This document shows, in pieces, positions 15,001 to 29,827 of a DNA stretch of 64,000 nt. The position numbers and the translations under genes were made by a program. The DNA comes from Polynucleobacter sp. MWH-Jannik1A5 (lineage in GTDB: Bacteria > Pseudomonadota > Gammaproteobacteria > Burkholderiales > Burkholderiaceae), in the NCBI RefSeq assembly GCF_018881795.1, contig NZ_JACVPQ010000001.1:1710963-1774962 (forward strand), read 5' to 3'. The stretch's first letter is position 1. The number at the start of each line of letters is the position of its first letter. The notes beneath the pieces are model-generated. The model ran no database searches, was not told the origin of the DNA, and saw only the letters and a list, made by a program, of their open reading frames with translations.

Positions 15001-18000
15001 ATTAGCAACCTGACCTATGTAAGCAAGACGGTTACAGGCAATGTAGTTACTTATAACTATGTAGATGGCTCAAGCCATACAGTCAGCTTTAACCTGACCC
15101 CAACTGGCACAAGCACCAGCACATCAGGAAATATTAATGTTGGTTCTTACTCCTACGCAGCAACCAATGTATCTGCTCCTGGTACAGGTTTAAGCTCAAC
15201 ATCAGGTGTAGCTACCGGTGATTTAGTGGTGACACCTTTGGCTTTGACAATTACTGCGCCAATTACAGGCCCATTAACTTATAACGGCACGAATCAAAAT
15301 CAAGGAGCTGTTACCTATTCAACACCAATTCTGTCGACTACTGGCGTTGGTACAGATCAAGTCAATGTAAGCGGTTTAGCATCTGGCAAGAATGTCGGTA
15401 TCTATGGTTCTAATCTAGCTGTGAGTGGGGCAGATACCTCTAACTACGCAATCACATTGGTTAACAACAATCTGACAATCACTCCGTTTGTCATAACCCC
15501 TGGATCAACTTCACCTACTGATCCACGTTTAACAACCGCAGCTAACAACAAGGTATACGACACCACTACTGCAGCAACAGGTAGCTTGGCGATGATTAAT
15601 CTGTTTGCTGGTGATTCTGTTGCCGTAAATTACGCCAGCGCCGCTTTTGCTAGCGCCAATGTCAATTCACCATCAAGTCCTCAAACCGTTACATTTAGTG
15701 GCGTTACCTTGTCGGGGGCATCGGCGAATAACTACACCATTGGTAGTGGGGCGATTACTGCCACTGCAAACATTACACCAGCGCCTGTAACTATTAGTGG
15801 TTTAGTAGCGCAAAACAAGGTTTACACCTCCACTAGCAATGCTGTAATTACTGGCACCCCAATTGTGACTGGCCTCTTGGGTTCTGATGCCTCAACAGCT
15901 ACTGGCACTGCTGTAGGAACATTCGTATCGCCCAATGTTGCCAATAGTATTTCAGTAGCAGCTGATTTAAGTGGAATGACATTAAGTAATCCTAACTATG
16001 TGATTACAGGTTTGACAGCGCCTTTAGCGGCTAATATCACCCCAGCACCATTGACGATTAGCTCTGGTTTGTTTGCTCAGAATAAGGTGTACGACATCAC
16101 AACTGTGGCAACGATTGCAGCAATTGGCGCACAAACATTGGAAGGTGTCCTTGGCTCTGATGCAGCGAATTTAGCCGTAAGCTCATCCGGTCCATACACG
16201 GGTAGCTTTAGTCAGGCAAACGTTGGCAACGGATTAACAGTTTCTCAAGCTACAGCCACAGCTGTTATCAACGGCAAAAGTTATACGACCATGGCAGGCG
16301 CAACCTTGTCTGGTTCAGCTGCAGGTAATTACTATGTGACTGGCCCAACCAGTGCATTAACAGCAAATATCACAAAAGCGCCGTTAACCATTACCGCCAT
16401 TAATCAAGCTTCATTTGTAACTCAGCCAATTGGCGCTTTAACATATGCATCTATTGGCTTGTTAGGTAGTGATGCGATTTCTGCTGTAACTCTGGCAACG
16501 GCTGCATCAAATACCCAACCAGCGGGCCAATATGCTATTACCGCCTCTAATGCAACTGGAGCGGCAATTGGTAACTACCAAGTAACCTACGTGCCAGGCA
16601 CTTACACTATTGTTCCTGCTGGTCAACTTCTGATTCATAGCAGTGGGGCGGTGACGCCTTATACAACTGCACCTACTTTTGCTAATCCAACAGTGGCTTA
16701 TGCAACCTCTGGTGGCGCCATTATTAACAATCTTTACCTCACTGCAAGTAGTACTGTGAATGGCATTACAACTTACACCTATTCTGATGGGGCAGGCGCA
16801 AGCTTGATCTTTAACTTTGCGCCGACTAATCCAGTCATGAGTGGTTCAAATAACGTGAGCGTTGGGACCTATGGCCTATCGGCTGCTAACTTTGCCATTA
16901 CTGGTAATAACATTACTAATATTTCACCAGTGGTTACTGGTGACTTAACGGTAACCCCACGTGCAATCACAATTACTGCAACACCTGCCACTTATGTATA
17001 CAACGGTACTGTTAGAGTGTTAGCTAATACCACTTCTACGCCAGGGATTGTTGCTGGAGATTTGGTAACAGTCGTGGATACAACGGCCGGTAAGAATGTC
17101 GGTAATTATTTCTCCGCATTGGCTACGACTGGGGCAGATTCTATAAACTATCAAACAAGCTTTATCAACGCAAATCTGTCGATTACTCCATACGTATTGG
17201 GATCCATTGTGGGTGGCCCAGCAATCAGCCCTTCTGCAAATAATAGGGTCTACAACACGACTACTGGCGCAACAGGTAGCTTGGCGATGACTGGTTTATT
17301 CCCCGGTGATGTTGTTACGGCCGATTTCACAAATGCATCATTTGCTAGTCCTAATGCTAATAACGGCATAACAGTGACCTTTAATAGTGTGACCTTGTCT
17401 GGTGCTGCAGCAGCAAACTATGTCTTAGGGGCGGCACCGGTATCAACGACAGCCAACATTACTAAAGCGCCCGTGACGATTAGCGGTTTGCTTGCTCAGA
17501 ATAAGGTATTTGATGGCACTCCGGCGGCCGTCATCACTGGTAACCCTGTAATTGCAGGGCTATTGGGATCTGATGTTTCTACTCTATCGGGAGCTGTGCT
17601 TGCTGGTTTGTTTGCTAGTTCGAATCCGGCGGATAGAATTTTGGTTAAAGCGATCTTAGATGCCTTAATTTTAGGTAACCCTAACTATTACATTGCGGGT
17701 GTGACTTTCCCATTAGTCGCGGATATTACGTCCCCACCACAAACCATCAATAATATGGCGATTGTGCAGCAGCAAGTTGCTCAAGATTTTGTGCAAGATC
17801 GTCCAACAGATCACATCAAAAAAGGCGAGTTGATCTATGTTCGCGATAAAGACAACTTGCCTGAGTACCTGCAAGCGATTGAAGTTCCCTCAACTGGTGC
17901 TTTCAAATTCCCGGTACCAGATTCAATTATTCAAGACTTGATTAACCTGTCAGGTGAGAATGCTGAATTGGCTAAACAGGCTGGTAGCTATAAGTTGCTA

Positions 18001-18215: not shown

Positions 18216-18512
18216 ATGGTTTCAGTTAACACCCCGAAGCATGGACGCAATCTAGGTAGACTGCTCAAAGAAGCCCGAGAATCTCAAGGTCATAACTTAG
18301 CCATACTTGCTAGGCAATGCGATCTTTCAGTTGTGCAATTAACAGCGATAGAGCGCGGTGACACATTGGCTTTTGCGCGCTCACAATCCAATCTCCTTGT
18401 GGCAATTCAAACTTATGCCCAAGTGCTGGGGGTTAGCTTTGAGCATATTGAGGGGCTTAATAATAGTCCGGATGACGATATCTACATTCCTGAATTTCTG
18501 AGAAAGAAGTAA
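18216..18512 (+). CDS. Small helix-turn-helix protein (RodZ/XRE-type N-terminal HTH)
   Basis: The product is 98 residues. Residues about 10-75 look like an XRE/HTH_25 helix-turn-helix: GRLLKEARE, LAILARQCDLSVVQLTAIERGD, then a helix ending in YAQVLGVSFEHI. This is the fold seen at the N-terminus of RodZ, but there is no membrane segment or periplasmic domain, so it is not RodZ. It starts 17 bp after the giant adhesin stop, and its TAA shares one base with the next ATG, so the three genes probably form one transcript. A regulatory role for the adhesin operon is inference. The ribosome-binding site is weak, so translational coupling is possible. Confidence 0.8.
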   Translation: MVSVNTPKHGRNLGRLLKEARESQGHNLAILARQCDLSVVQLTAIERGDTLAFARSQSNLLVAIQTYAQVLGVSFEHIEGLNNSPDDDIYIPEFLRKK

Positions 18513-19072
18513 TGAAGTCTTTCTTAAGAAGGCTTTATCTTGCCTTTCTACTGACTTTCTTTAGTGGATATCTATGGGCAATTGAGAGGGTAGTTATCGG
18601 CAATTGGATTGTTCAAACCTCCCCTGGGTCTATTGAGGCCTCAACAAGTGCGGGCTCAACCTCTTTTGGAATTTACTGTCAGGCAGACCAGTGCATGTTC
18701 TACCTTCATGACAGCTTAAGATGCCATCCGGGGAGTAAATCGCCTATCTTGATGAGTGGGTTGGGTAATGCAGCGTCTCTTAATATGCAGTGCGCTCAAA
18801 TAAACGGGGTACTCTTTCAGATCCTCGAACCATTTAATGTGGTACTAGATGAGGTTAAGCGCGGTGGTTTGGTGAGCTTTGCAGTACCGCTTCAAAACGG
18901 TTCTTTTGGCGTCTCTCGCTATAGCTTGAATGGCGGCTTTGAGGCGGTGAGGAAAGCATTGCAAGAAGCGGGCAACGCAAAAAGGACGCTACCAAAACCG
19001 GTAGATCCTTTGCCGGCACAGCCGCTTCAGCCTGTGCCAGGATCAAGACGTCTTCAGGACATCATGATCTAG
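18512..19072 (+). CDS. Exported protein of unknown function, possibly IalB-like
   Basis: The product is 186 residues with a clear signal peptide: MKSFLRRLYL, a hydrophobic stretch, then cleavage near WA-IE at about residue 23. The mature part has four cysteines (YCQADQC, LRC, MQC) and a beta-rich pattern. The GNW motif near the start, the cysteines and the later GFEAVRKALQEAG helix recall the invasion-associated locus B family, but the resemblance is not strong enough for a firm name. The tail is Pro-rich (KPVDPLPAQPLQPVPG). It overlaps the upstream HTH gene by one base and ends the adhesin transcript. A periplasmic helper for adhesin export or stability would fit, but this is inference. Confidence 0.75.
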   Translation: MKSFLRRLYLAFLLTFFSGYLWAIERVVIGNWIVQTSPGSIEASTSAGSTSFGIYCQADQCMFYLHDSLRCHPGSKSPILMSGLGNAASLNMQCAQINGVLFQILEPFNVVLDEVKRGGLVSFAVPLQNGSFGVSRYSLNGGFEAVRKALQEAGNAKRTLPKPVDPLPAQPLQPVPGSRRLQDIMI

Positions 19073-19082
19073 GCTATCTTGT

Positions 19083-19913
19083 TTACTGGGTAATTCTAGC
19101 GCGTCCACGAAGGTCTTTAACAGTCTCAACTAAGTATTGCTGTACAAAGGCTTGACGTAATTGAGGTTTGGATTCTTCATACCCTGGTAGCTTGAAGTTG
19201 CGCTTATCGTCTAGTTTGATGATAGCCCAGCCACCTTGTACTTGAATAGGGGCGCCATAGATTGCCCCTTTATTCAATTTGGATACTAGCTGCTGCAGTT
19301 CCGGGCTAAGTTGTCCTGGGAATAGCCAACCCAATTGTCCACCATTACTCTTAGCGCCATCGGCAATAGAGTATTGCTGGGCTAATTTACCAAAAAGTTC
19401 ACTCTTATTGATGCGATTGATAAGGTCTATAGCATCGGATTCATTAACAACAATGATCTGGCTAACTCGGTATTGAAAACCAGTAGTGGCATCGCCAGTT
19501 AATTTTCGTTGGCGGTCGTATTCTTCGCGTAACTGGGCGTCGGTAATAGGGGACTTCTTAAAGTGCGCTTCCACTAATGCCTGAATGAGTAGGGTTTGGC
19601 GTAATTGGGTGTATTGATCATCTAAATCAATGCCTTTTTCCAGATCCATGCGCTCAGCCTGTTGGGCTAAAAGCTCACGATTAATTAACTCATCTTTTAA
19701 GGTTTTTTGGAGCTCGGGAGTATTTTTCTGGCCCTGTGCAACAGCTGCTTTGATATTGAGATCCAGCAAGCCTTTTGTGAGCATGGTGCTATTCACTGTA
19801 GCAAAGAAGTTGATATTTGAGGCGCTGGAGCTACTAGCTTCTGGGGCGGCAATGACGCCGTAGGAAATGCTTAATAGAGTAGAGAAGAGGAGTGCAAAAA
19901 CATGTTTTTTCAT
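19083..19913 (-). CDS. Periplasmic parvulin-type peptidyl-prolyl cis-trans isomerase
   Basis: The product is 276 residues counted from the ATG at 19913, where MKKHVFALLFSTLLSISYG starts a typical signal peptide; the frame continues upstream to 19988, but that would put 25 residues before the signal sequence. An N-terminal helical chaperone part (about 30-140) is followed by a parvulin domain with YRVSQIIV, FGKLAQQYS, NGGQLGWLFPGQLSPELQ and GAPIQVQGGWAIIKLDD. These are hallmark elements of the PpiC/SurA/PrsA group, which catalyse prolyl isomerisation and help fold exported proteins. Its 3' end faces the adhesin operon with only 10 bp between. A role with the huge secreted adhesin is tempting but not shown by the sequence. 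Confidence 0.9.
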   Translation of the reverse strand: MKKHVFALLFSTLLSISYGVIAAPEASSSSASNINFFATVNSTMLTKGLLDLNIKAAVAQGQKNTPELQKTLKDELINRELLAQQAERMDLEKGIDLDDQYTQLRQTLLIQALVEAHFKKSPITDAQLREEYDRQRKLTGDATTGFQYRVSQIIVVNESDAIDLINRINKSELFGKLAQQYSIADGAKSNGGQLGWLFPGQLSPELQQLVSKLNKGAIYGAPIQVQGGWAIIKLDDKRNFKLPGYEESKPQLRQAFVQQYLVETVKDLRGRARITQ

Positions 19914-20260
19914 CTTCCAATTATAAAGCGTGAAACCTTTAAATCTCCATGGAGTTTCTGGTATGGGAGCCTCTAGAACGTCTATCAAGTTGACAAAAAT
20001 TAAAACTGTTTAAATTGTGGGGGGTATCAAAATTCGCACAGCCCGTTGACTCGACATAACATGGAGGGCTATTTTTGGATGCTCGGCAAATCATCAATCT
20101 ACTGGATAGATCTGCGAGCAATGGACTATAGATCCGATGAAAATACTTGCATCTAGAGGCACTTGAAATCGAATTCAAAAATTTCTAAACCGTTCATATA
20201 TCAGGCTGCTCGGAAATCGGATACCCCCCACGTCGGTTTGATACCCCCTGGGGTCTATAG
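19914..20260. other. Intergenic region with inverted and tandem GGGGTATC motifs; possible island edge
   Basis: No convincing gene lies in these 347 bases. They hold ggggggtatcaaaa at 20019-20032, and two tandem copies in the opposite orientation, gatacccccc at 20220-20229 and tttgataccccc at 20237-20248, the latter two 20 bp apart. The last copy ends 12 bp from the stop of the DUF2075 gene. Oriented short repeats of this kind resemble the arm-type sites bound by tyrosine integrases, so this may mark the left edge of the island whose integrase is at 28-29.6 kb. No duplicate of the tRNA-Asn 3' end is visible here. Confidence 0.5.
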
Positions 20261-21898
20261 CTATAACTCTTTTATTCCGCACGCCTTTAAATAGTTAAAG
20301 GTCTCATCGTAGAATTCGGGAGGTCGCGTATGGTCCGATACCTCGCCTTTAGGCACATATATGGCAATCCCTTGCCGTGCTCGAGTTAAAAGCACTCTAT
20401 ATGCATTCTTGAGGTACAGCTTGCGCTGCATCTTATGCACACCTTGCCAGCTTGTTCCTCTAAAGTTGTAATGATTCCATGCGTTATTCTTATAGCGGAA
20501 ATCAGCGTCCCAGCCGACAATAATCCAATCCAACTCCAGCCCTTGAACGTCAAACTCAGTTGCAACTTCTTCCAAATAAAACGATGTTCGTATATCTGAT
20601 TGGTCATTCAGGAACCATACTGAAGCATCAATCTTGTCTTTTACGTTGATACCATCGGGCCGAAGTCTTATAGCCCCTGAAGAGGCAACTAAACCATATC
20701 TCTCCGTACCCCTTGCTTGGGATTGCACCCACGTTTTTGCTGCGCCCATATCCCTGGTTAATACGATAGGGTACCGATCAGCAATACGCAAATAGGCTTC
20801 TTTTGCTCTCTCGGGTTGATTCTCAATTACATGGCTAGCAAACTCAGAAAGAGCATCCGCTCTAAACGAGCGCATTGAAACAGATAGATGTAATTCTGGT
20901 TCATATTGACAAGCGATTTTGGAGATCGATTCACTGAGTTCAGGATCCCAGAAGTAATCTCTATCATTTAGTCTATTGGATACATATATATCCCAGTCCT
21001 TATATTGTTCTTTAAGGGCGATTAACCATTCGGAGATACCGGCTTCCCCTGTATTGATTTCTTGACCGCCACCAATAAGGCAAACAATGGTGCACCAGTC
21101 GTGATGCCTATCCATTGCGCCTATGAGAAATGCGGGTTCAGACATATTGAAATCAGGATACCCACGTTTTTGTTGCATAAATTTACTGGCTTGTTCTTTG
21201 CCCCAGGCTCTTTGTGCCTCGTCAAAAATAACTACTTTTTCATATGGGGCAAGCTCCGACTTGAGGGCCTCATCACGAAAGTGATGGATATTTTGAATAA
21301 AACTCGCAACCTTACGATGCGCATCTTTCTTGGGGATACCCTCTCTTATGGATTCATCTCTAGCTAGAGCCTCTCTTAACACTTCAACTAAAGGGCCATT
21401 TCCAGACAAGAAGACTGCATGTTCGTCGTTGTGTTCCTTGGCGCGCACTGTCGCTATATTGAGCCCGGCAAGTGTTTTCCCTGCCCCTGGAACTCCCGTA
21501 ACAAAGCAAATTGATTTTTTATTGTTTTTCTTTGAGACTTCAATAATTTGGGAAATCTTATTTGTAGTAACCGTTAGATTATGTGCGCTAGCATCTGATC
21601 TAGTGATTTCTTCCACTTGATGGTCTCGATATAGCGCCTGCGCAGCTTCAATAATGGTGGGTGTAGGGTGGTAACCTGACTGTGACCATTTGTCTGGATC
21701 GATTTCAGTGCGAGGGAGCACTTGTAGGGCGCTTGAAATAAACTCCATTAACTCATTTGACGTTAGGCATATCGGGGTGGCAACCAAATCATTAGCTAAT
21801 TTAATAGACGGCAATCCCTTAGGAGTTGAGTTGGTAGCAATGAGGATGGGGATGACGTAAGTGCTGTGTGACCCTTTATGAAAGTTTTTCAGATCCAA
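20261..21898 (-). CDS. DUF2075 (Schlafen-type) P-loop helicase part of a frameshifted gene
   Basis: The open frame gives 545 residues. Walker A GVPGAGKT is at 135-142, Walker B VVIFDEAQ at about 222-229, and the C-terminal VLLTRARQGIAIYVP helicase motif VI is intact. This is the DUF2075 / Schlafen group 3-like superfamily 1 helicase domain. Full-length relatives carry a PD-(D/E)XK nuclease-like domain in front. Here that domain is encoded just upstream, partly in this same frame above the ATG at 21898 (RADVV, then VIEFKVG) and partly in another frame (see 21899-22221). The annotated start is therefore probably not the original one. The family is common in defence islands and mobile elements; the activity is unknown. 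Stop is TAG at 20261. Confidence 0.85.
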   Translation of the reverse strand: MDLKNFHKGSHSTYVIPILIATNSTPKGLPSIKLANDLVATPICLTSNELMEFISSALQVLPRTEIDPDKWSQSGYHPTPTIIEAAQALYRDHQVEEITRSDASAHNLTVTTNKISQIIEVSKKNNKKSICFVTGVPGAGKTLAGLNIATVRAKEHNDEHAVFLSGNGPLVEVLREALARDESIREGIPKKDAHRKVASFIQNIHHFRDEALKSELAPYEKVVIFDEAQRAWGKEQASKFMQQKRGYPDFNMSEPAFLIGAMDRHHDWCTIVCLIGGGQEINTGEAGISEWLIALKEQYKDWDIYVSNRLNDRDYFWDPELSESISKIACQYEPELHLSVSMRSFRADALSEFASHVIENQPERAKEAYLRIADRYPIVLTRDMGAAKTWVQSQARGTERYGLVASSGAIRLRPDGINVKDKIDASVWFLNDQSDIRTSFYLEEVATEFDVQGLELDWIIVGWDADFRYKNNAWNHYNFRGTSWQGVHKMQRKLYLKNAYRVLLTRARQGIAIYVPKGEVSDHTRPPEFYDETFNYLKACGIKEL

Positions 21899-22390: not shown

Positions 22391-23170
22391 ATGAGTCTAA
22401 GTGAATACATGGTTTTTGTTGATGAGAGCGGCTCTCCATCTATGGGTAATATAGACCCCAATTACCCACTCTTTGTACTTGCATTTCTAATTGTTAAAAA
22501 AGATGAATATGTCAGCTCATTGACACCAGCAATACAGAGGTTCAAATTCAAACACTTTGGTCATGACCAAGTTATCTTGCATGAGCGTGATATTCGTAAG
22601 GATATTGGCGCCTTTTCAGGTCTTAAAAATCCTGCTATCAAAGTATCATTCTTGGATGAATTGACCACAATTATTGCTGGACTTCCATTTCATTTGGCAT
22701 GCGTCGTAATTGATAAAGATGGGCATAAAAAGAGGTATTCTTCTCCCATAAACCCCTATCATTTAGGCCTTGAATTTGGGCTTGAAAGGGTAAGAAACTT
22801 TCTGATTCAACAAAAAGAATGGATTGAGCCAAGTGTTGCCGTTCATCTTGGTCAGGTTGAGCATTTCAATCCAAAATTACATGTCATTGTTGAAAAAAGA
22901 GGCAAAGCTGAGGATGATGACCTGGAGTTAGAATTTCGCCGAATCTGTGATGGTTCAAATTTCCATGGTGAGAAATTTAATTTTGAAGTTGTGTTCTCGG
23001 ATAAAAAGTCTAATGCCGCTGGATTGCAAATTGCTGATTTAGTCGCAAGACCAATTGGAATATCTGTACTCAGGCCTGGTCAATCTAACAGAGCTGTAGA
23101 TGTTTTGCAGTCGAAGCTACTTAAGAAGAATGGGAAGACTGATGGTTACGGTCTTAAGAAATTTCCGTAG
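22391..23170 (+). CDS. DUF3800 domain-containing protein
   Basis: The product is 259 residues. It starts with the family signature YMVFVDESGSP (the FxDESG motif of an RNase H-like fold), followed by a FVLAFLIV strand, and ends with GLQIADLVARPIG, the conserved C-terminal motif. Further acidic and basic positions (HERDIRKD, VIDKDGHKKRY) fit the family. DUF3800 proteins are predicted nucleases or nucleic-acid-binding proteins, often found in mobile and defence-rich regions; the actual activity is unknown. A good ribosome-binding site, aaaggg, lies 6 bases before the ATG. The gene stands alone on the plus strand, divergent from the DUF2075 gene, with AT-rich promoter-like DNA between them. It is likely cargo of the island. 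Confidence 0.9.
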   Translation: MSLSEYMVFVDESGSPSMGNIDPNYPLFVLAFLIVKKDEYVSSLTPAIQRFKFKHFGHDQVILHERDIRKDIGAFSGLKNPAIKVSFLDELTTIIAGLPFHLACVVIDKDGHKKRYSSPINPYHLGLEFGLERVRNFLIQQKEWIEPSVAVHLGQVEHFNPKLHVIVEKRGKAEDDDLELEFRRICDGSNFHGEKFNFEVVFSDKKSNAAGLQIADLVARPIGISVLRPGQSNRAVDVLQSKLLKKNGKTDGYGLKKFP

Positions 23171-23544
23171 ACCATAAAAACAAAAAGCCCCGGTAAACCG
23201 GAGCTAGTTGTCGACCGAGAATCCCCAGTCCTTGTCGTTATTCTATCAGGTCTTAAACCAACCCTCAAGCAGTTGCTTTACCCTTAAATTTACTATGTTT
23301 AGTGCATTTTGAGGCCTAGTTACGATATTTAATAGGGCGCGAATCAGGGCTGCCAACGGTTTGGTTATCCGTTTAGCATACAGAATTATTTAAATCAGAC
23401 TCCTCTTATCAGGCTGACATCACTTTGAGGCTTAGTGCTTTTATAGTAGTACTCTTGCGGATTTTGTACCTAATCTTGTACACGATAAGCCCGGGTATCA
23501 TCTTTACCCTCATGTATATGCCTTTAGGGCTCTCAACCTACGGA
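23171..23544. other. 374-bp gene-free stretch between DUF3800 and the minus-strand operon
   Basis: No reading frame with a start and family resemblance is seen. The stretch holds the terminator at 23186-23208 and half of the hairpin at 23536-23560. It also has two near-copies of ttgaggcYtagt about 115 bp apart (near 23308 and 23427) and paired ttgtac words near 23466 and 23476. It would be the 3' untranslated tail of the 24530-23545 transcript, so a small RNA is possible but unsupported. Confidence 0.4.
23186..23208 (-). terminator. Rho-independent terminator, minus strand
   Basis: On the minus strand an agctccggt/accggggct hairpin is followed by TTTTTGTTTTT. It would end minus-strand transcription coming from 24530, leaving an untranslated tail of about 340 bases. 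On the plus strand it also lies 16 bp after the DUF3800 stop, but without a T-tract. Confidence 0.7.
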
Positions 23545-23560
23545 TTACAAATCCGTAGGT
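23536..23560 (-). repeat. Perfect 11-bp hairpin resembling a tRNA anticodon arm
   Basis: The arms acctacggatt and aatccgtaggt pair perfectly around a 3-base loop. Read on the minus strand, ACGGATTTGTAATCCGTAGGT resembles the anticodon arm plus variable loop of a tRNA with a TGT (Thr-type) anticodon. Twelve bases, TAATCCGTAGGT, are also identical to the 3' side of the anticodon arm of tRNA-Asn at 29752-29827. D-arm and T-arm are absent, so it is not a tRNA. The stop codon of the 23545-23925 gene lies inside the hairpin. It could be an attachment-site relic, an integrase core site or a plain hairpin. Confidence 0.6.
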
Positions 23561-23925
23561 GCTAATTCTCTCCATTCCTTGAATGCTGCATTCAGTGCGG
23601 GGCTAAACCTGTAAAGGCAACCTTCTGGCTTGTCGATTCCCTCAGACTTGTACCATTTCCATCCAGGGACATTTCTATCTGATTCCGGTGTTGATACTAG
23701 GATGATGTCACTTCTTCCTTCAGGTGACCTATGAAAAGTAATGAGGGTCTCCGTAGCGCTAAAGTTTTGAGCTGCGAGCATTTGTACCAATTCGCATTTA
23801 GAGGGCCTAGGACCGAAGATGGGGATAAAAACTAGGGCTGTTTTAAACGACCCTCCTTGAGCCTGTTGCAGGGCTGCCTGCATCGAATCTAGCAGCTTAG
23901 TAAGCTCCTCAAGTTTCGAGCTCAT
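23545..23925 (-). CDS. Unknown island protein, 126 aa
   Basis: I do not recognise a family. The N-terminal 20 residues (MSSKLEELTKLLDSMQAALQQAQG) look like an amphipathic coiled coil. An alpha/beta part follows with FKTALVFIPIFGPRPSKCELVQMLAAQNFSA and then GRSDIILVSTPE, a mostly hydrophilic region with Trp residues (GWKWYKSEG), and a C-terminal helix FKEWREL. No signal peptide or membrane segment is seen. The ATG overlaps the stop of the upstream 202-aa gene by ATGA, so the two are translationally coupled and likely work together or share regulation. It is the last gene of the satellite-like module. Confidence 0.7.
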   Translation of the reverse strand: MSSKLEELTKLLDSMQAALQQAQGGSFKTALVFIPIFGPRPSKCELVQMLAAQNFSATETLITFHRSPEGRSDIILVSTPESDRNVPGWKWYKSEGIDKPEGCLYRFSPALNAAFKEWRELAPTDL

Positions 23926-24530
23926 GGGAGCGTGCTCACGATGTCAATTTGAGCGATGTTGTTCTGTGCCTCTCTCGAAGAAATTTCTTCAATTTGCTTT
24001 TGGAGTGAGTATATGCGGTCTACTATCGCACCGCTTAGAGATACAGAGCCAGCTTTTTCAAGCAGAGCCATAGCTTTTGAGGCACCATCAGCATCCATTT
24101 GGCCTGTTGCAGCAGCCGTAACAATTGAGTGAGCTGTTTGATCGACGGTAGGTTGGATGCTAAATTTTAGGAGTTGCTTTCTCTCGGGAAGGAATCGATT
24201 TATTAAAAGTTGAGAGGCTTGAATATCCCCACTGAGAGCTTTATCAACAAGGGCTTGCGTAATCCCTTCAGCATTATTAATTACGATTTCTAGAGCTCTT
24301 TGAGCCTTTGAGTGGGCATTTTCTAGTGCCGATTCAGGTAAGTCTTTGGGAGCGATGCTCTTTAGCTGATATACAAGCGCTTCTTGAGCAATTTCAGTCG
24401 CCACAGATTCAAAGCGTTTCCGCTCCTGAAATGCACGTGTTCTTAAGGTACTCTCACCTAGGGGCTGTCCGTCTGCCTTTCTTTTTCGCCCACCTTTTTT
24501 CTTCGGTGGCGGCAGGGTAGTTGGTTGCAT
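23922..24530 (-). CDS. DUF5681-like / possible small-terminase-like DNA-binding protein
   Basis: The product is 202 residues. A basic, Pro/Lys/Gly-rich N-terminus (PPPKKKGGRKRKADGQPLGEST) leads to a helical segment with ALVDKALSGDIQASQLLINRFLPERKQLLKF, a GD-x-QA-x-(L/R)-LL-x-R-x-(L/I)-P pattern seen in DUF5681-type proteins of phages and integrative elements. Then come ATGQMDADGASKAMALLEKAG and a C-terminal coiled coil (IYSLQKQIEEISSRE). A DNA-binding role is likely from the charge pattern. A small-terminase-like role is a guess from position in a satellite-like operon. It starts after a 221-bp intergenic segment with an inverted repeat, so it probably has its own promoter. Confidence 0.65.
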   Translation of the reverse strand: MQPTTLPPPKKKGGRKRKADGQPLGESTLRTRAFQERKRFESVATEIAQEALVYQLKSIAPKDLPESALENAHSKAQRALEIVINNAEGITQALVDKALSGDIQASQLLINRFLPERKQLLKFSIQPTVDQTAHSIVTAAATGQMDADGASKAMALLEKAGSVSLSGAIVDRIYSLQKQIEEISSREAQNNIAQIDIVSTLP

Positions 24531-24606
24531 TGTTCGATACCGTTCTATTCAGATGCTTTAACTATATGGAATACGCACCACATTTGGAAGTAATAATCGG
24601 TACACA

Positions 24607-24622
24607 AGTACACGTGTGTACT
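24607..24622. promoter_or_regulatory. Inverted repeat agtacac-gt-gtgtact, candidate operator
   Basis: Two perfect 7-bp arms flank a 2-bp centre, 77 bp upstream of the 202-aa gene start. A further gtgtact lies at 24691-24697, bracketed by two gtgtccc words at 24681 and 24700. The segment 24531-24751 otherwise holds no gene. The layout suits a repressor or activator site for the 24530-23545 operon, or part of a replication origin after the primase-helicase genes; nothing in the sequence decides between them. Confidence 0.5.
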
Positions 24623-24726
24623 GAAGTTTTATAGAAAGTATTTATTCAATTTTTAAGAAAAAGATAGTCCCTAAAAACAAGTGTCCCCATGTGTACTGGT
24701 GTCCCGATCATCATCCTGCAGATAAA

Positions 24727-24750
24727 AAAAGGGGGGGGTGGACCCCCCCA
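24727..24750 (-). terminator. Rho-independent terminator after the helicase gene
   Basis: On the minus strand, immediately after the helicase stop at 24752, seven G and eight C form a very strong hairpin around tcca, followed by seven T. The unbroken G and C runs are also a place where sequencing errors would be expected, but the position and T-tract fit a terminator well. Confidence 0.85.
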
Positions 24751-24751
24751 T

Positions 24752-26245
24752 CTATTCACCATTTGTTTCAATAGATTTTTCACCTAGACTCTCTTTATCA
24801 GCGACATACAAGTCAAGCTTTTCACGGCTATTAATTTTGCGTTTGATATCTTGGAGTCGGTCCAATTCAGTTTTGAGTTCAAAGGGCCTGCGACCATTCC
24901 ATTTTTCATGTTCTCTAATTACGTAAACGGTTACAGCTTCTCTTTCTGACACCTTAACCCTTTTTAAATATCTTCTGATATTGGCTCGATGAAGCGAGTG
25001 ATGCTGCGCTGCAGTTGGCCTCCCGTTATCCTCATACCCCGAAAAAATCGTTTTGATGTCTTTGACGTCGATGAGGTCGCTAGGCCAATGCTCTGCTATG
25101 AGACGAGCATACTCATCGGAATCAGAGAGACTGACCTCGATTGCTTGCTGTTTTGCATCGGTCATGGAAGCCTTTTGACCTGGATTGAAATCCTTAATTT
25201 CGCGCATCCGAAGATAGTGCCCGACACTTCTTATAAAAAGTGGATCCTCCAAGGCCTTATAAAGAGCAATATAGTACTGAGCTTCTTTAGGCTCCTTTTC
25301 CGTATAGACCACCTCAAACCTCCTGTCACCTTGGTCAATAGGAATGGCAGCAATATGGTTGCTAAACATCAGCCATCTACATGAGTTGTACTCAATTGAT
25401 TGGCGCCCATATTTTGGGTTTATAACCCGAGTTTCTTCTGTAATGAGAGATTTCATTTTCTCGGCATGCCGCCATCTAGCCTCTCCACCTCCTTCCCGAA
25501 TTTCGTCGACGATAGCCAATATCTTTCTCGAAAGGTGACCGTTGTAGCCGCTATTAAGTAGGGCAGGCAAGTCAACGTTAGCGGCAACATTGCCTTTCCA
25601 CAGTCTAACTAGAACAGATGCCACCCAGTTTCTCCCCAATCCGAACGATCGAGAGATATGGAGCCAGGCTGTATGGGGCAAAATTTCTGGTTGTTGCTCG
25701 ATATGAGCCAACCAGTCCAGAAATCTTGGCGCCTGTGAGTCAAAGAGAAAGTTTATATGCTCAAGAAAAATCTGGATCCGCGCTTCCCAATCACTAGGAT
25801 TGTCCTCTCTCCATGGCATTCGCCAGGAATTCAGAGCGGGTCGCCCCTGAGGGTCGTTTATGAAAACCGGACCTCCTGCTTTAAATGAGTGCGTTTGAAC
25901 AGTCTTTCTCTCTGGTGAAAAAAGCCATAGCTTAGAGATCTGAACAACATCAAATTGAGACACATTCCGCTTGGAGGGTACTTCATCACTTGATGCCAGC
26001 ATTGCATTAACCCAATCCTGTTTGCTAGTAACAAAATTTGGGGAATTTAAATCTCCTATGAAAGACCCATCCGAAATGAAGACAAATCGCCTTAGTGCCT
26101 CCTCAAGATCGATCAACTCAGCCAAGGGTACTACGTCCCCCTCGCCGATAAGCTGATTCTCAAGTTTTTGATCTGATCTGCGTTTAGCCTTCAATGCCTT
26201 TGTAATTTCAGCTGCTTGTTCTTCGAGGTTGTCATTTGCAGGCAT
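24752..26245 (-). CDS. Primase-associated SF3-like helicase (DUF5906/D5-like), with altered Walker A
   Basis: The product is 497 residues. Residues about 150-420 have the layout of the phage/satellite DUF5906 helicase group: FLDWLAHIEQQP, then LHISRSFGLGRNWVASVL at the P-loop position (about 196-212), then KILAIVDEIREGG as Walker B (about 241-253), then EYNSCRWLMFSNHIAAIPID as the sensor-like strand and DRRFEVV. The P-loop reads GLGRNW, with Arg at about 205 where the catalytic Lys of GxGK(S/T) is expected. It should act as the replicative helicase of the element with the primase, whose 3' end it overlaps by 14 bases. The C-terminal 100 residues are charged and helical and could bind DNA or the primase. 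A strong terminator follows. Confidence 0.8.
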   Translation of the reverse strand: MPANDNLEEQAAEITKALKAKRRSDQKLENQLIGEGDVVPLAELIDLEEALRRFVFISDGSFIGDLNSPNFVTSKQDWVNAMLASSDEVPSKRNVSQFDVVQISKLWLFSPERKTVQTHSFKAGGPVFINDPQGRPALNSWRMPWREDNPSDWEARIQIFLEHINFLFDSQAPRFLDWLAHIEQQPEILPHTAWLHISRSFGLGRNWVASVLVRLWKGNVAANVDLPALLNSGYNGHLSRKILAIVDEIREGGGEARWRHAEKMKSLITEETRVINPKYGRQSIEYNSCRWLMFSNHIAAIPIDQGDRRFEVVYTEKEPKEAQYYIALYKALEDPLFIRSVGHYLRMREIKDFNPGQKASMTDAKQQAIEVSLSDSDEYARLIAEHWPSDLIDVKDIKTIFSGYEDNGRPTAAQHHSLHRANIRRYLKRVKVSEREAVTVYVIREHEKWNGRRPFELKTELDRLQDIKRKINSREKLDLYVADKESLGEKSIETNGE

Positions 26246-27263
26246 TTATGCCTCCTTGACCTATAAATGCAAAAAGATCCTTGAGATTCTTATCCCGGCA
26301 TGACCTGTGGAAGCAGTGAAAAGCGCCAATCCAGCCATTACGTATATTTGGAGAAGCTAGCCCAGCTATTCGTGCGGCTTTGTCAGTGTGATTTTCTGAC
26401 CATGGGCATTCGACTGTTATCCATTCGTTGTTTAAATTTACACCTTCGATAAGATTTTTTGATTCAACTTTTGAAAGTAAGTTTTCCCAATATTGATCTA
26501 CATCTTGTTTTAACTGAACCCCGATATCTATCTGTTTTATCCGGCGATTTCCAAATGGTCTCAAGCTCAAGTTGTAATGGGAGATCAATTCATCCAGGGC
26601 ATAAATCTTTTTTGGCTCCCAGTGAATAAGTCTCGTTTGAAAATATTGACCATTTTTTTCAGTAAGATGTTTTTTACTATTCGAGCCCACGGGAAGTCTC
26701 ATGAATCGATTTAAGCCCTTAGCTCCACCATCGGTAAGGCCTGCATCGGCTAGACCATTTATTACCTTCTCACACTTCGTTCTGTTGTATGTGTCGTCAC
26801 CAGCGAGAAAGTAGTGGGCCTGATAGTTTCCAGGGCTTGTTTCGATAATCGCCGAAGGAGGAAGGGTAACTGAATTTAAATTAACTTTTTTCCCAAGGTC
26901 ATCCAGCGAGATACATTTCATTTGATGGAAAAACTCACTTTTTCTGCTCCAAAGTGCTGTTTTATGCTCCAGGCCGTCAATACCGACAATTTTGCTCATT
27001 TCGCTCGGCAAAAACGAGCTAATGCAGAAATAGTTATTTGAATCTGGAGAAGAGGGAATCTGGGATAAATTGCTAATGGGGATACCCCGAATCCCGGCTG
27101 CCTTCACTCTGGCTTCAAAACTCCCCAGGACTTTCCCGCAAATCATTCTGGCAGGGTACTTTCCCATCGGGAATTTATCGCCACATACGGCGCTTAAAAA
27201 GTCAGCATTACTAACTCCCATGCTACTTTTTGTTTGTGATGCTTCAATTATTTTTTTTAACAT
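26232..27263 (-). CDS. RepB-type (archaeo-eukaryotic-like) DNA primase of the island
   Basis: The product is 343 residues. ISLDDLG at about 118-124, IETSPGNYQAHYFL at about 140-153 and GLNRFMRLPVGSNSK at about 183-197 are the characteristic elements of RepB-like plasmid and phage primases. The C-terminus has CPWSENHTDKAARI and then FHCFHRSCRDKN, a Cys/His cluster likely to bind zinc, in the arrangement seen where primases are paired with a helicase. The gene overlaps the helicase gene by 14 bases, so the pair forms the replication module. Such modules are known in P4-like satellites, phage-inducible islands and some plasmids. The region just upstream (27264-27449) has short tandem repeats that could be an origin or operator. 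Confidence 0.85.
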   Translation of the reverse strand: MLKKIIEASQTKSSMGVSNADFLSAVCGDKFPMGKYPARMICGKVLGSFEARVKAAGIRGIPISNLSQIPSSPDSNNYFCISSFLPSEMSKIVGIDGLEHKTALWSRKSEFFHQMKCISLDDLGKKVNLNSVTLPPSAIIETSPGNYQAHYFLAGDDTYNRTKCEKVINGLADAGLTDGGAKGLNRFMRLPVGSNSKKHLTEKNGQYFQTRLIHWEPKKIYALDELISHYNLSLRPFGNRRIKQIDIGVQLKQDVDQYWENLLSKVESKNLIEGVNLNNEWITVECPWSENHTDKAARIAGLASPNIRNGWIGAFHCFHRSCRDKNLKDLFAFIGQGGINACK

Positions 27264-27382
27264 ATCGGTTCCTAAATAAAAGTTATGGAACCATCACCAT
27301 TTGTCACGCAGCTTGTGCGTCGAGATGGGTGTCGAATTTACTAACCGGGGGTGCTAATTACATCTGTGGCTTCGACGGTATG

Positions 27383-27409
27383 TGGTCTAGTCTGTCAAGT
27401 CGGTCAAGT
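27383..27409. repeat. Three tandem 9-bp iteron-like repeats upstream of the primase gene
   Basis: Plus-strand units tggtctagt, ctgtcaagt and cggtcaagt lie head to tail, 120 bp before the primase ATG. A short inverted repeat acgca/tgcgt with a 5-base gap lies at 27306-27320. Tandem short repeats beside a primase or initiator gene are typical of plasmid and satellite origins, or of autoregulatory sites. The first unit is diverged. Confidence 0.5.
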
Positions 27410-27420
27410 TGGGCATATGT

Positions 27421-27443
27421 TTTTATTTCCAGCTGAAATAAAA
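27421..27443 (-). terminator. Weak AT-rich hairpin after the 222-aa frame
   Basis: The arms ttttatttc and gaaataaaa pair perfectly around cagct, just past the stop at 27450 on the minus strand. The stem has almost no G-C pairs, so termination would be weak; read-through into the primase gene is likely. Confidence 0.35.
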
Positions 27444-27449
27444 GGGTGG

Positions 27450-28091
27450 CTACAAATCGTTATATAGATAGAGTTCCTCCTCCTCGGATTTTGGTTGAGT
27501 TGAGGTTGGATCGTATAGAGCCACTATTTTTTTCCTGTATATCGGTATTGCCTCCATAGTTTCTTTCATAACAGCTGCTTTTGCATGAATGAGCGTGGGA
27601 AATTTATGAGGCAAGAATCCGCTAGGATTACGAGCCCAAAATAGTTTGGAGCTCCCTTTATAAGGACCCACGTTATAAAAGCCGCCTTCAATATTTACCC
27701 ATTCAGATTTTCTTGAATAGCTTTCGGTCCAAATTTCACCCGATAAAAGGCCCGAACTTTGCTTGTCGATTCTATTCAACATGTAACTCACTTCTTCATT
27801 CGGAAATTTACATAATGGGATGGCGCAGCCAAAACACATGTTCATGTAAACGTACCTTACTTCTCCGATGCTCCTTTTGTATTTTTGGCCGATCGACATC
27901 AGCCCCTCACCAGTTTTCTTGCACTTCTCGCATAAATATTTAGAGGTATAGCCAGAAATGCCAAATGGACTCATCCGATCATAAATACTCACCCATTCGC
28001 GAGAATCTTTTTCAATTTTCGGAATTAATCCATTTTCAAAATCATCCGATGAATATCTTTTAAAACCGCAGCCGTGGTTCCAGTTGATCAT
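27450..28091 (-). CDS. Unknown island protein with cysteine pairs (putative zinc finger)
   Basis: The product is 213 residues from the ATG at 28091. That start is preferred because GGAGG sits 9 bases upstream and the ATG overlaps the stop of the preceding AlpA-like gene as ATGA; the frame itself extends to 28118. CEKCKKTGEGLM at about 55-66 and MCFGCAIPLC at about 85-94 supply CxxC pairs suited to one zinc site. The rest is alpha/beta with aromatic residues (EWVNIEGGFYNVGPYKG, KLFWARNPSGFLPHKFP) and an acidic C-terminus. I recognise no family. Its place between the AlpA-like and primase genes suggests an early function of the element. Confidence 0.7.
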   Translation of the reverse strand: MINWNHGCGFKRYSSDDFENGLIPKIEKDSREWVSIYDRMSPFGISGYTSKYLCEKCKKTGEGLMSIGQKYKRSIGEVRYVYMNMCFGCAIPLCKFPNEEVSYMLNRIDKQSSGLLSGEIWTESYSRKSEWVNIEGGFYNVGPYKGSSKLFWARNPSGFLPHKFPTLIHAKAAVMKETMEAIPIYRKKIVALYDPTSTQPKSEEEELYLYNDL

Positions 28092-28288
28092 TTGGAGATC
28101 CTCCGTTTTGATACCCAAGAAATAACATCGCTCCTTAAGTAGACGGGGGTCCTTTTGTCAATCCAAGAGCATGGTATTGGGTCCATGCTCACTCTGTTGC
28201 GATCTACCCATCTCTTGGTTTTGCCGAGCATGGACCCAACTTCATGCGAACGCATGGGTTGGTCAGTTAAGTTAACTTCAGTTTTCAT
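28088..28288 (-). CDS. AlpA/excisionase-like small DNA-binding protein
   Basis: The product is 66 residues. SHEVGSMLGKTKRWVDRNRVSMDPIP is a MerR/AlpA-type helix-turn-helix, followed by the short beta-hairpin region with PVYLRSDVISWVSKRR, as in AlpA and excisionases. AlpA activates the integrase of CP4-type elements, and related proteins act as directionality factors. The gene overlaps the integrase gene by 11 bases and the next gene by 4, so the three are co-translated. It probably controls excision or early transcription of the island. Confidence 0.8.
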   Translation of the reverse strand: MKTEVNLTDQPMRSHEVGSMLGKTKRWVDRNRVSMDPIPCSWIDKRTPVYLRSDVISWVSKRRISK

Positions 28289-29582
28289 CTTTACTACCTT
28301 TCATAGGTGTTGTCTGATCCGCAATTTCTTCAACAAGATTTGCTAGGGTTTGCCATGCTTCGGCTACGGATTCAGGATCTACCGAATAATGGCGGTCCAT
28401 TGTTGAAGTCTGTGAGTGGTCCAGCATTGCTTGGACCAAATGGGAGGGGATGTTCTTATAACGAGCAATCGACGCTGAGCATTTCCGCATATCTTTTGGT
28501 CTATATGCGTATTCACCTTCGCGTCCAAGCTCTTTATTGATCTGAGTAAGTACAACCCGCCCCTCGTTTACTTGGAATATCTTTTCAGTTGGACTCCTGC
28601 CAGCACATTGCTCTTGAATGATTGCTAATGCTTGTTTGGACAAATAAATTACGTGAGGCGTCCTAGATTTCATTTCCCTAATGGTTAATGTTTTCATTTT
28701 GGGATTGAAGTCAGATACCGTAGGGCGAAGTGGCTCTTCAGATCTTTTCGCCGTCAATAGCAAGAACTTTATGTAATTAACAGCGTCTCGGTATTGATCT
28801 TTAAGTCCGTTAAGCTGCGCCCAAAATTCAGGTAGTCCAGATCTCCATAGCCGGCCTTCATCCGAGGAAGACTTGTTAAGGGTCACATAGCTTTCATGAC
28901 CTTTTACGAATATATTTTTGGCTATGGGAAATTTGGAGTTAGATAGCACAGCCTTTAACCATGCTGCATCAGACGCAGATCTTATTGGGGCTTTATTTGA
29001 ATAGTCCTTGTACCATTCAAGTAGCTCTTGTGCGCCGAGGTCCTTAAGTTTCGTATTGGTGAATTCAAATAGAGGGCCGGGTTTTCTTGCCTTTTTGGCA
29101 TTTCCAAATGCTGCTCGGGACTGATCAGCTGTAATGCCTGGGGCAATCAAGCCCAATATTTGTTTTTTAGAGCGGTCTGAAAGGTTAAGCACTTCACCTT
29201 TTCTATTTTTTCTGGTGTGCTCATTTGCATAACGCTTAAAGGCTTCTCCAAGCGTAATGCCAAGTTTGGCATCTTCTTGATTGTTGGCGGTGAAATCTAA
29301 GCCCTCAACCTCGTTACCAAGCTCTAGATTTGCATTGATTCGCTTTACCCAGCTCCTAGCTTCTGTAATGGGGTGTGCATCTGGATTAAGCCCCGATGTT
29401 AGAAAGCAGGCCTTACCTTTGAAGGTTCTTCTGTATACCCACGATTTAGCGCCACTCTTCAGGGAGCGGAGAAAGAGGTGAGGCTCCTTATCGTCTTTTC
29501 TATATTGGCTAGATTGTGGGTTCATTGATGTGCCTTTTTGGTAAGCACATCCGATAGTATGGAATTCGGGGTCGATTTCCAA
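28278..29582 (-). CDS. Tyrosine recombinase (island integrase)
   Basis: The product is up to 434 residues. An arm-binding-like N-terminus (HLFLRSLKSGAKSWVYRRTFKGK) and a SAM-like core domain precede the catalytic domain. The tetrad is recognisable: Arg280 in LLLTAKRSEE, a beta-hairpin Lys305 (REMKSRTPHVIYLS), Arg366 in RPKDMRKCSAS, His389 in MLDHSQ, and the nucleophile Tyr399 in MDRHYS. The first histidine of the usual HxxR box is replaced (K-D-M-R). It lies directly beside the 3' end of tRNA-Asn, the classic position for a tRNA-targeting integrase. An internal ATG at 29525 with aaaaagg upstream is an equally good start and would remove 19 residues. It overlaps the AlpA-like gene by 11 bases. 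Confidence 0.92.
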   Translation of the reverse strand: MEIDPEFHTIGCAYQKGTSMNPQSSQYRKDDKEPHLFLRSLKSGAKSWVYRRTFKGKACFLTSGLNPDAHPITEARSWVKRINANLELGNEVEGLDFTANNQEDAKLGITLGEAFKRYANEHTRKNRKGEVLNLSDRSKKQILGLIAPGITADQSRAAFGNAKKARKPGPLFEFTNTKLKDLGAQELLEWYKDYSNKAPIRSASDAAWLKAVLSNSKFPIAKNIFVKGHESYVTLNKSSSDEGRLWRSGLPEFWAQLNGLKDQYRDAVNYIKFLLLTAKRSEEPLRPTVSDFNPKMKTLTIREMKSRTPHVIYLSKQALAIIQEQCAGRSPTEKIFQVNEGRVVLTQINKELGREGEYAYRPKDMRKCSASIARYKNIPSHLVQAMLDHSQTSTMDRHYSVDPESVAEAWQTLANLVEEIADQTTPMKGSKDEN

Positions 29583-29714
29583 GAAATAGTCGTAGATAGC
29601 CAGATTTGGACTAACGACCTATGCGTTTGATTCATTCATTTCTCCTTGTACAAAAATTGGACAAAGAGGTAGAACAAAAGACTTTTTAGGCTGGGCAGGG
29701 TGCCCACCAAAGAA

Positions 29715-29747
29715 AAAACCCTGTAGCTATTAGGCATACAGGGTTTT
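29715..29747 (-). terminator. Terminator of tRNA-Asn
   Basis: On the minus strand, 4 bases after the tRNA CCA, the arms aaaaccctgta and tacagggtttt form an 11-bp stem, followed by further T residues. It ends tRNA-Asn transcription and separates it from the integrase gene. Confidence 0.85.
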
Positions 29748-29751
29748 AATT

Positions 29752-29827
29752 TGGCTCCTCGACCTGGGCTCGAACCAGGGACCTACGGATTAACAGTCCG
29801 GCGCTCTACCGACTGAGCTATCGAGGA
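29752..29827 (-). tRNA. tRNA-Asn (anticodon GUU)
   Basis: The minus strand folds as a full 76-base cloverleaf. The acceptor stem TCCTCGA pairs with TCGAGGA, the D-arm is GCTCAGTCGGTAGAGC, and the anticodon arm CCGGACTGTTAATCCGT has GTT in the loop. The variable loop is AGGTC, the T-arm CCTGGTTCGAGCCCAGG, the discriminator G, and CCA is encoded. The tRNA is intact, as expected if the island restored its 3' end on integration. Confidence 0.97.

Follow-up and report, generated by a model that had tools for sequence, protein, structure and literature searches.

Three described groups of mobile elements are the closest known systems to the locus analysed here. Tycheposons of Methylophilaceae are bordered by a tRNA gene, encode a tyrosine recombinase, carry a large variable cargo in genome-streamlined aquatic hosts, and range in size from 4 to 200 kb (PMC10872708). 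Gram-negative phage-inducible chromosomal islands (PICIs) have an integrase at one end, a small regulator and a primase-type replication gene; some carry a gene for a small terminase (terS; protein, TerS) as well as phage-resistance genes, and their size is about one third of that of the helper genome (PMC6092414). The phage-inducible chromosomal minimalist islands (PICMIs) of Vibrionaceae carry integrase, AlpA and primase genes but no capsid-remodelling genes, and protect the host from other phages; PICMI115 (6.1 kb, beside fis) is packaged as a concatemer, and its authors found no terS homologue (PMC10803314). Here we describe an element in a tRNA-Asn gene of Polynucleobacter sp. MWH-Jannik1A5 (genome G000). 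The stretch analysed, referred to as the window, is 64,000 nucleotides long (G000:C1:1710963-1774962), and positions given without a prefix are those of the window. An earlier note on this DNA had described seven genes at 23545-29827 as a compact satellite. We found that this cluster is the tRNA-side end of a 36.8-kb cargo-bearing element, and we lean towards the view that the element excises, replicates itself and is packaged by a helper phage via its 202-aa protein, which is predicted to be TerS-like.

The element shares with the tycheposons the border tRNA, the tyrosine recombinase, the large variable cargo and the type of host, and its 36.8 kb is inside their size range. Unlike in the tycheposons, exact attachment (att) repeats and an empty site were demonstrated here and a TerS-like gene is predicted in the module, and the cargo consists of defence-candidate and adhesin genes rather than the nutrient genes described for them. 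With the Gram-negative PICIs it has in common the integrase at one end, the primase-type gene, a possible small regulator and the absence of virion genes among the proteins scanned, whereas primase and helicase are separate genes here. The resemblance to a standard PICI that had been suggested earlier does not extend to size, since 36,766 bp taken as one third would imply a helper of about 110 kb. With the PICMIs it shares integrase and primase genes, a possible AlpA-type gene, the lack of capsid-remodelling genes and a possible protection of the host from other phages, but its site is tRNA-Asn rather than fis, it is 36.8 kb long, and a TerS-like gene is predicted. A literature search covering few subscription journals found no published description of such an element.

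The extent of the element was determined from its att repeats and from an empty site in another genome, as follows.

29752-29827, minus strand: tRNA-Asn(gtt), the insertion site (ARAGORN; comparison with genome G177)
29749-29797, minus strand: attL repeat, from the tRNA-Asn anticodon loop to the 3' end plus 3 bases; exact second copy at G000:C1:1703945-1703993
1-29797: part of the element inside the window, continuing 7,018 bp leftward to G000:C1:1703945 (49-bp repeats and G177 empty site)

A search of the region against its own genome detected an exact 49-bp match of 29749-29797 at G000:C1:1703945-1703993, and two other short matches were weaker. This far copy (attR) lies 7,018 bp left of the window, and the inserted length between the copies is 36,766 bp. 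In G177, a single-contig genome of the same species, the yegQ-side and tRNA/thiD-side flanks are 97% identical to those of G000 and overlap by exactly the 49 bp (yegQ, thiD and, below, thiE and thiG are names that we assume for the flanking genes). All DNA between the two copies is absent from G177. Its site has a single intact tRNA-Asn, after which comes a terminator-like hairpin, and this downstream sequence is the same as that following the far copy in G000. The G177 locus is an empty site, and because its flanks overlap by exactly 49 bp, the 36,766 bp were gained or lost as a unit in the tRNA-Asn anticodon loop. Comparison of G000 with G177 showed that the element's own 3' half restores the tRNA-Asn. 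The integration in tRNA-Asn proposed earlier is thus borne out by the tRNA gene, the repeat and the empty site. A compact 6.3-kb unit ending at 23545 is ruled out by the same repeat and empty site; the element carries cargo and reaches 7 kb left of the window.

The tRNA match near 23545 is only 12 bp long. A match of at least 12 bp was obtained somewhere in 7 of 100 first-order random sequences of island length, and the longest interior tRNA match (13 bp) lies elsewhere than 23545. The 12-bp match is therefore within reach of chance for the whole island. One further structure lies at this position.

23536-23560, minus strand: perfect inverted repeat of 11 bp that spans the stop of the 126-aa gene and resembles a tRNA anticodon arm

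Outside this site, the genome sequence most similar to it is tRNA-Thr(tgt), with 2 mismatches in 19, and the repeat might be the remnant of an att core from a shorter, ancestral element. tRNA-Thr(tgt) is also the tRNA type used by the related elements L090 and L091 described below. In two more species, tRNA-Asn 3' halves bound about 26.5 kb (G010:C1:891148-917713) and about 17.5 kb (G121:C1:1069263-1086788), and these stretches make it likely that the genus has an integration hotspot at tRNA-Asn.

The module at the tRNA side consists of seven open reading frames (ORFs), all open and running away from tRNA-Asn on the minus strand.

28278-29582, minus strand: predicted tyrosine integrase, 434 aa (Phage_integrase 1.3e-10; phrog_1 5.4e-24; Arm-DNA-bind_3 1.7e-5, below its cut-off)
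28088-28288, minus strand: small DNA-binding-type protein, 66 aa (phrog_2528 1.6e-4; phrog_4745 'DNA binding protein' 0.0066)
27450-28118, minus strand: Cys-containing protein, 222 aa (32% identical counterpart at the same place in genome G216)
26232-27263, minus strand: predicted primase, 343 aa (RepB_primase 3.9e-11; phrog_4861 1.1e-19)
24752-26245, minus strand: predicted replicative helicase, 497 aa (DUF5906 4.4e-15; phrog_24712, unknown, 1.8e-14; phrog_1156 'DNA primase' 5.4e-14)
23922-24530, minus strand: distant DUF5681 relative, 202 aa, predicted TerS-like (profile chain to phage genes adjacent to the large-terminase gene, terL)
23545-23925, minus strand: 126-aa protein, which follows the 202-aa gene also in locus L027; a 23%-identical 122-aa ORF does so in locus L028

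The one-strand order with overlaps described earlier holds for the order and for four neighbouring pairs, which overlap by 11, 31, 14 and 4 bp, but gaps of 186 and 221 bp separate the members of the 222/343-aa and the 497/202-aa pair, respectively. The integrase, primase and helicase calls agree with the profile matches above. The alpA-like call for the 66-aa gene is plausible from weak PHROG matches, which were limited to the two families listed, but no Pfam family was matched; an AlpA-like regulator or excisionase is possible from these similarities. The structure model of the 126-aa protein has a mean predicted local distance difference test (pLDDT) score of 80 and gave no clear fold match. 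As had been stated, no virion gene was detected among the island proteins scanned (13 in total, nine with Pfam and PHROG and four more with Pfam).

Integrase relatives were found in 15 of 121 genomes including its own, the others being 22-47% identical over parts, and none was matched in viral contigs. Primase relatives did occur in viral contigs (362 of 436 stretches), and helicase relatives of 35-48% identity were on 18 viral-collection contigs of up to 48 kb. The helicase relatives and the best 80 primase-relative stretches make up 98 viral-collection loci (L102-L199). Among these 98 loci, the DUF5681 profile detected one clear gene (L152) and one weak match (L123, 4.6e-5), the 202-aa profile L152 alone (1.6e-5), and the 126-aa profile no match. 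Protein-collection searches gave 31 matches for the 202-aa protein and 6 for the 126-aa protein, own included in both cases, and 7 for the primase. No relative examined belonged to a full prophage or a conjugative element, which had been named as refuting the satellite interpretation, but the nature of the 18 contigs with helicase relatives was unexamined.

The small-terminase likeness that had been suggested for the 202-aa gene stands as a chain of two profile comparisons. In Pfam, the protein matched DUF5681 below threshold (17.3 bits against a gathering cut-off of 27.5). The same sub-threshold match was obtained with all 32 aligned members of its family (best 4.9e-4), and 8 of the 32 weakly matched phrog_9747 (best 0.023). 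An earlier profile of the 202-aa family detected one DUF5681 protein in the genus, where 3 of 186 genomes were matched including its own and G216; the family profile detected three DUF5681 proteins in the order, where 4 of 399 genomes were matched including its own. All four of these DUF5681 proteins exceed the Pfam cut-off. Using hhalign, of which each E-value holds for one comparison, the 202-aa family aligned with the DUF5681 set with a probability of 96.7% (E 3.9e-10, 69 columns), and the DUF5681 set aligned with a set of terL-adjacent phage proteins with a probability of 99.2% (E 1.3e-19, 120 columns). One DUF5681 protein matched 14 of 50,697 phage records, and those with terminase-linked relatives are 37.9-42.4 kb long. 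Five of the 14 were opened; in four of them the relative immediately precedes terL, with an 8-bp overlap at the start of terL, and the portal gene comes next. Judging from these alignments, the 202-aa protein probably belongs, as a diverged member, to a family encoded next to terminase genes, from which we infer a putative role as TerS. A single-sequence search with the 202-aa protein in viral contigs gave one match, L023, which lies inside a 310-aa phage ORF that looks unrelated.

The order integrase, primase-helicase, DUF5681-type gene and cargo recurs elsewhere with unrelated replication genes. L028, from a Comamonadaceae metagenome-assembled genome, contains an integrase, a helix-turn-helix protein, other replication genes, a 205-aa relative (61% identical to the 202-aa protein), the 122-aa ORF and then cargo. 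Beside the 205-aa relative, L028:6518-14928 is an unusual defence cluster with an N6/N4 methylase and PbeC- and PbeA-type genes, as well as a large protein with matches to the RNA-polymerase-alpha C-terminal domain and sigma-70 region 4. L091 (genome G540) shows tRNA-Thr(tgt), an integrase, a PrimPol-DUF3987 protein, a DUF5681 protein above the Pfam cut-off and type I restriction genes, with exact 48-bp copies of the tRNA 3' half delimiting 18.55 kb. In L090 (genome G397), 46-bp copies of the tRNA-Thr 3' half, 9.6 kb apart, surround an integrase, a 702-aa protein 27% identical to the DUF3987 protein of L091, and a DUF5681 protein; L090 may be one of a tandem pair because no whole tRNA was detected in the stretch. 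Both L090 and L091 resemble the present element in the anticodon-loop att repeats and in the integrase, primase-helicase and DUF5681 genes followed by other genes. They differ from it in that their DUF5681 protein is shorter, no 126-aa gene was found, and the integrase, primase and helicase of the window are unmatched in them, except for a distant integrase outside the L090 repeats that was found with the L028 integrase. A primase relative and a DUF5681-type gene also occur together in L152 of the viral collection. In L026, a DUF5681 gene was found with no primase within the 3.3 kb read.

Several observations speak against packaging of the element by way of a TerS-like 202-aa protein. Compared directly, the 202-aa family and the phage set gave a probability of only 11%, and the phage set had itself been gathered by a DUF5681 protein search, which means that the second link was partly selected for. 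Two other weak matches are no worse than the favoured ones, namely DUF2058 in 8 of the 32 family members (best 6.6e-4) and a PHROG holin family in 6 of 32 (best 0.0085). In Kosakonia phage Kc259, the relative is separated from terL by one gene. All five opened phage proteins belong to phrog_9747, which is annotated 'unknown function', and neither this family nor DUF5681 bears a functional name. A DUF5681 protein has been reported among the virion proteins of a Salmonella phage. Presence in the virion is not expected of a small terminase. The AlphaFold model of the 202-aa protein is poor (mean pLDDT 60), with no TerS among the fold matches listed. No relative of this protein was found in the 50,697 phage records or, with the family profile, in viral contigs. 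The size of 36.8 kb is above that usual for satellites, and neither a circular form nor induction or particles have been observed. Furthermore, the adhesin locus of the cargo occurs away from tRNA-Asn in another species (genome G183), so that growth of the insertion may have taken more than a single step. In this element no terL lies beside the 202-aa gene, terL adjacency being seen in the phage relatives alone.

The weak direct comparison would also be expected if the 202-aa protein were a replication or partition accessory going with the primase-helicase and not a packaging protein. Of five other loci that were read at length, four (L028, L090, L091 and L152) agree with this explanation in that the DUF5681-type gene follows a primase/helicase-type gene; in the fifth, L026, it does not. 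Since the DUF5681-type relatives occupy the terS position in phages and are linked by the 120-column profile match, we consider an accessory role possible but on balance doubtful.

Whether the 36.8 kb is one unit or two was addressed by comparison with G216, a genome of another species in which thiD, thiE and thiG are 77-79% identical to those of G000. The earlier note had proposed a search of relatives for the gene set at tRNA-Asn, and G216 does carry the element there, although its assembly divides it between two contigs (including L027). The DNA identity between G000 and G216 is 93% in the tRNA-integrase spacer, 95% in the integrase gene, 91% in the primase gene, 97% in the helicase gene, 95% in the 202-aa gene and 97% in the 126-aa gene. 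The 192 bp after the 126-aa gene are 99.5% identical up to a sharp break at 23353, and about 200 bp around attR are 99% identical. Two genes of the module are exceptions: the 66-aa gene is 79% identical, and the 222-aa gene has no DNA match (protein identity, 32%). The cargo differs between the two species: the PpiC isomerase gene is 86% identical, the outer-membrane-type ORF 82%, the response regulator 71% and the kinase 65%, and the slot of the defence helicase and DUF3800 genes is occupied by another gene in G216. Most of the module and both att arms share a history that is not common to the cargo. An identity of module and att arms above that of the cargo is as predicted if one integrase-att unit carries cargo that can be exchanged. 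For G216, we also considered a second element lying between attR and yegQ but rejected it, since the 29 kb there contain no satellite gene; these genes are presumably metabolic.

The same difference in identity, 91-97% for most of the satellite module and 65-86% for the adhesin part, might be obtained if two elements lay in tandem, a compact satellite from the tRNA to about 23545 or 20200 before an older adhesin island, the att site between them having decayed. Such an arrangement would also agree with the perfect anticodon-arm-like inverted repeat where the 126-aa gene ends, with a 17-mer that resembles att (2 mismatches) and lies some 0.3 kb inward of attR, and with the G183 adhesin locus, which lacks this satellite. 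However, no internal copy of the 46-49-bp repeat was found, the internal candidates extending over only 17 bp with 2-4 mismatches. At 99%, the outer arm of attR is as conserved as the integrase gene, indicating that it travels with the integrase and not with the adhesin part, and G177 lacks everything between both copies. A tandem pair is thus improbable.

Alternatively, the locus could be a defective, immobile genomic island in which an old prophage-derived integrase and replication module no longer move. No virion gene or relaxase among the scanned proteins and no sign of excision would be consistent with this, but all seven module ORFs are open, the 49-bp repeat copies are exact, and most of the module is 91-97% identical in G216 over a background of 77-79%, which indicates recent movement or exchange; we regard immobility as quite improbable. 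Transfer by conjugation as an integrative mobilizable element would fit the size and cargo, and an unrecognised origin of transfer or relaxase may serve small elements, but it is very unlikely given that Pfam detected no relaxase, mating-pair or type IV secretion gene among the 13 island proteins (a set leaving out the giant ORF, kinase, regulator and small ORFs).

The cargo inside the window comprises the following genes.

22391-23170, plus strand: DUF3800 protein, 259 aa (Pfam 3.6e-17)
20261-21898, minus strand: Schlafen-group-3-type helicase, phage-defence candidate PDC-S41, 545 aa (Pfam 7.3e-80; PADLOC PDC-S41 6.4e-248)
19083-19988, minus strand: PpiC-type peptidyl-prolyl isomerase, 301 aa (Rotamase 1.5e-14)
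18512-19072, plus strand: 186-aa protein, which adjoins the adhesin locus in G183 too
58-18198, plus strand: giant ORF, 6,046 aa, likely (part of) a two-partner secretion adhesin, with a ShlB/FhaC transporter gene just left of the window

The PDC-S41 match spans positions 109-653 of the 657-position profile, the first ~108 being missing from the protein, which may reflect either a truncation or a start codon lying further upstream. The transporter (L005:11740-13512) matched ShlB with 1e-26. Judging from its repeats and haemagglutinin-like sequence, the giant ORF is likely the adhesin, or part of it, of a two-partner secretion locus. Further cargo genes encode a kinase/regulator pair, both with relatives in the PDB, and an outer-membrane-type protein (Phenol_MetA_deg). 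The adhesin block (outer-membrane ORF, kinase, regulator, transporter, giant ORF, 186-aa protein and isomerase) is also present in G183, a genome of another species, at another site (G183:C1:955634-978655; L213, L214). G183 and G000 are 96% identical over window positions -6514 to -228 (6.3 kb) and 64-93% beyond, and the transporter proteins are 98% identical. Neither a tRNA-Asn half (up to 6 mismatches) nor a satellite gene was found in 52 kb of the G183 site. The adhesin locus is itself travelling cargo, because it occurs in G183 away from tRNA-Asn, and the likeness represents exchange of a very large surface-protein locus. Transporter relatives with E of 1e-30 or better occur in 74 of 186 genus genomes, most of the matches listed being 30-50% identical.

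The G183 adhesin locus lies about 8 kb from a tRNA-Ser gene, behind which are a 134-aa gene and a large-terminase gene. The terminase of this G183 cluster, which also has a 71-aa ORF that we presume to be AlpA-like, is 96% identical to that of a cluster in G000 (G000:C1:192126-193520; L218). The latter lies beside a permease-like ORF and consists of a primosomal-type gene, a 79-aa ORF, a 134-aa gene in the terS position and a large-terminase gene, with no portal gene in the 4.4 kb read. Clusters of the L218 type look like another type of mini-element carrying its own terminase pair.

Taken as one unit, the 36.8-kb element is likely a cargo-swapping, tycheposon-like element that would move as a phage satellite, as far as gene content and profile matches indicate. 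In the mechanism that we propose, the integrase would recombine both 49-bp copies, by which a circle is released and the tRNA-Asn is restored, and the 66-aa protein may act as regulator or excisionase. The primase and helicase would replicate the circle. The 202-aa protein would then recognise the element DNA and recruit the large terminase of the helper, and the 126-aa and 222-aa proteins might modulate the packaging step or the helper. Particles would deliver the element to a new cell, where it would enter at tRNA-Asn. The cargo (the defence-candidate helicase, the DUF3800 protein, the likely adhesin with its transporter, and the kinase/regulator pair) may repay the host and be exchanged between elements. 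A length of 36.8 kb could in principle fill the head of the 37.9-42.4-kb phages, which is a coincidence and not evidence.

We propose, as a tentative generalization, that DUF5681/phrog_9747 would be a class of small terminases and that the element would belong to a class of Burkholderiales satellites in tRNA anticodon loops, so far unrecognised, built of an integrase, an interchangeable primase-helicase, a TerS and a cargo bay, by which helper phages would deliver defence and adhesin islands of 10-37 kb between freshwater species. The present case also shows that a satellite module, when only one end is read, can belong to a far larger element of which it is just the visible part. If the proposal is true, it would give a function to DUF5681, which recurs beside replication genes of mobile elements, and would explain how huge loci for surface proteins and defence are passed among streamlined freshwater bacteria by elements in which no conjugation gene was found.

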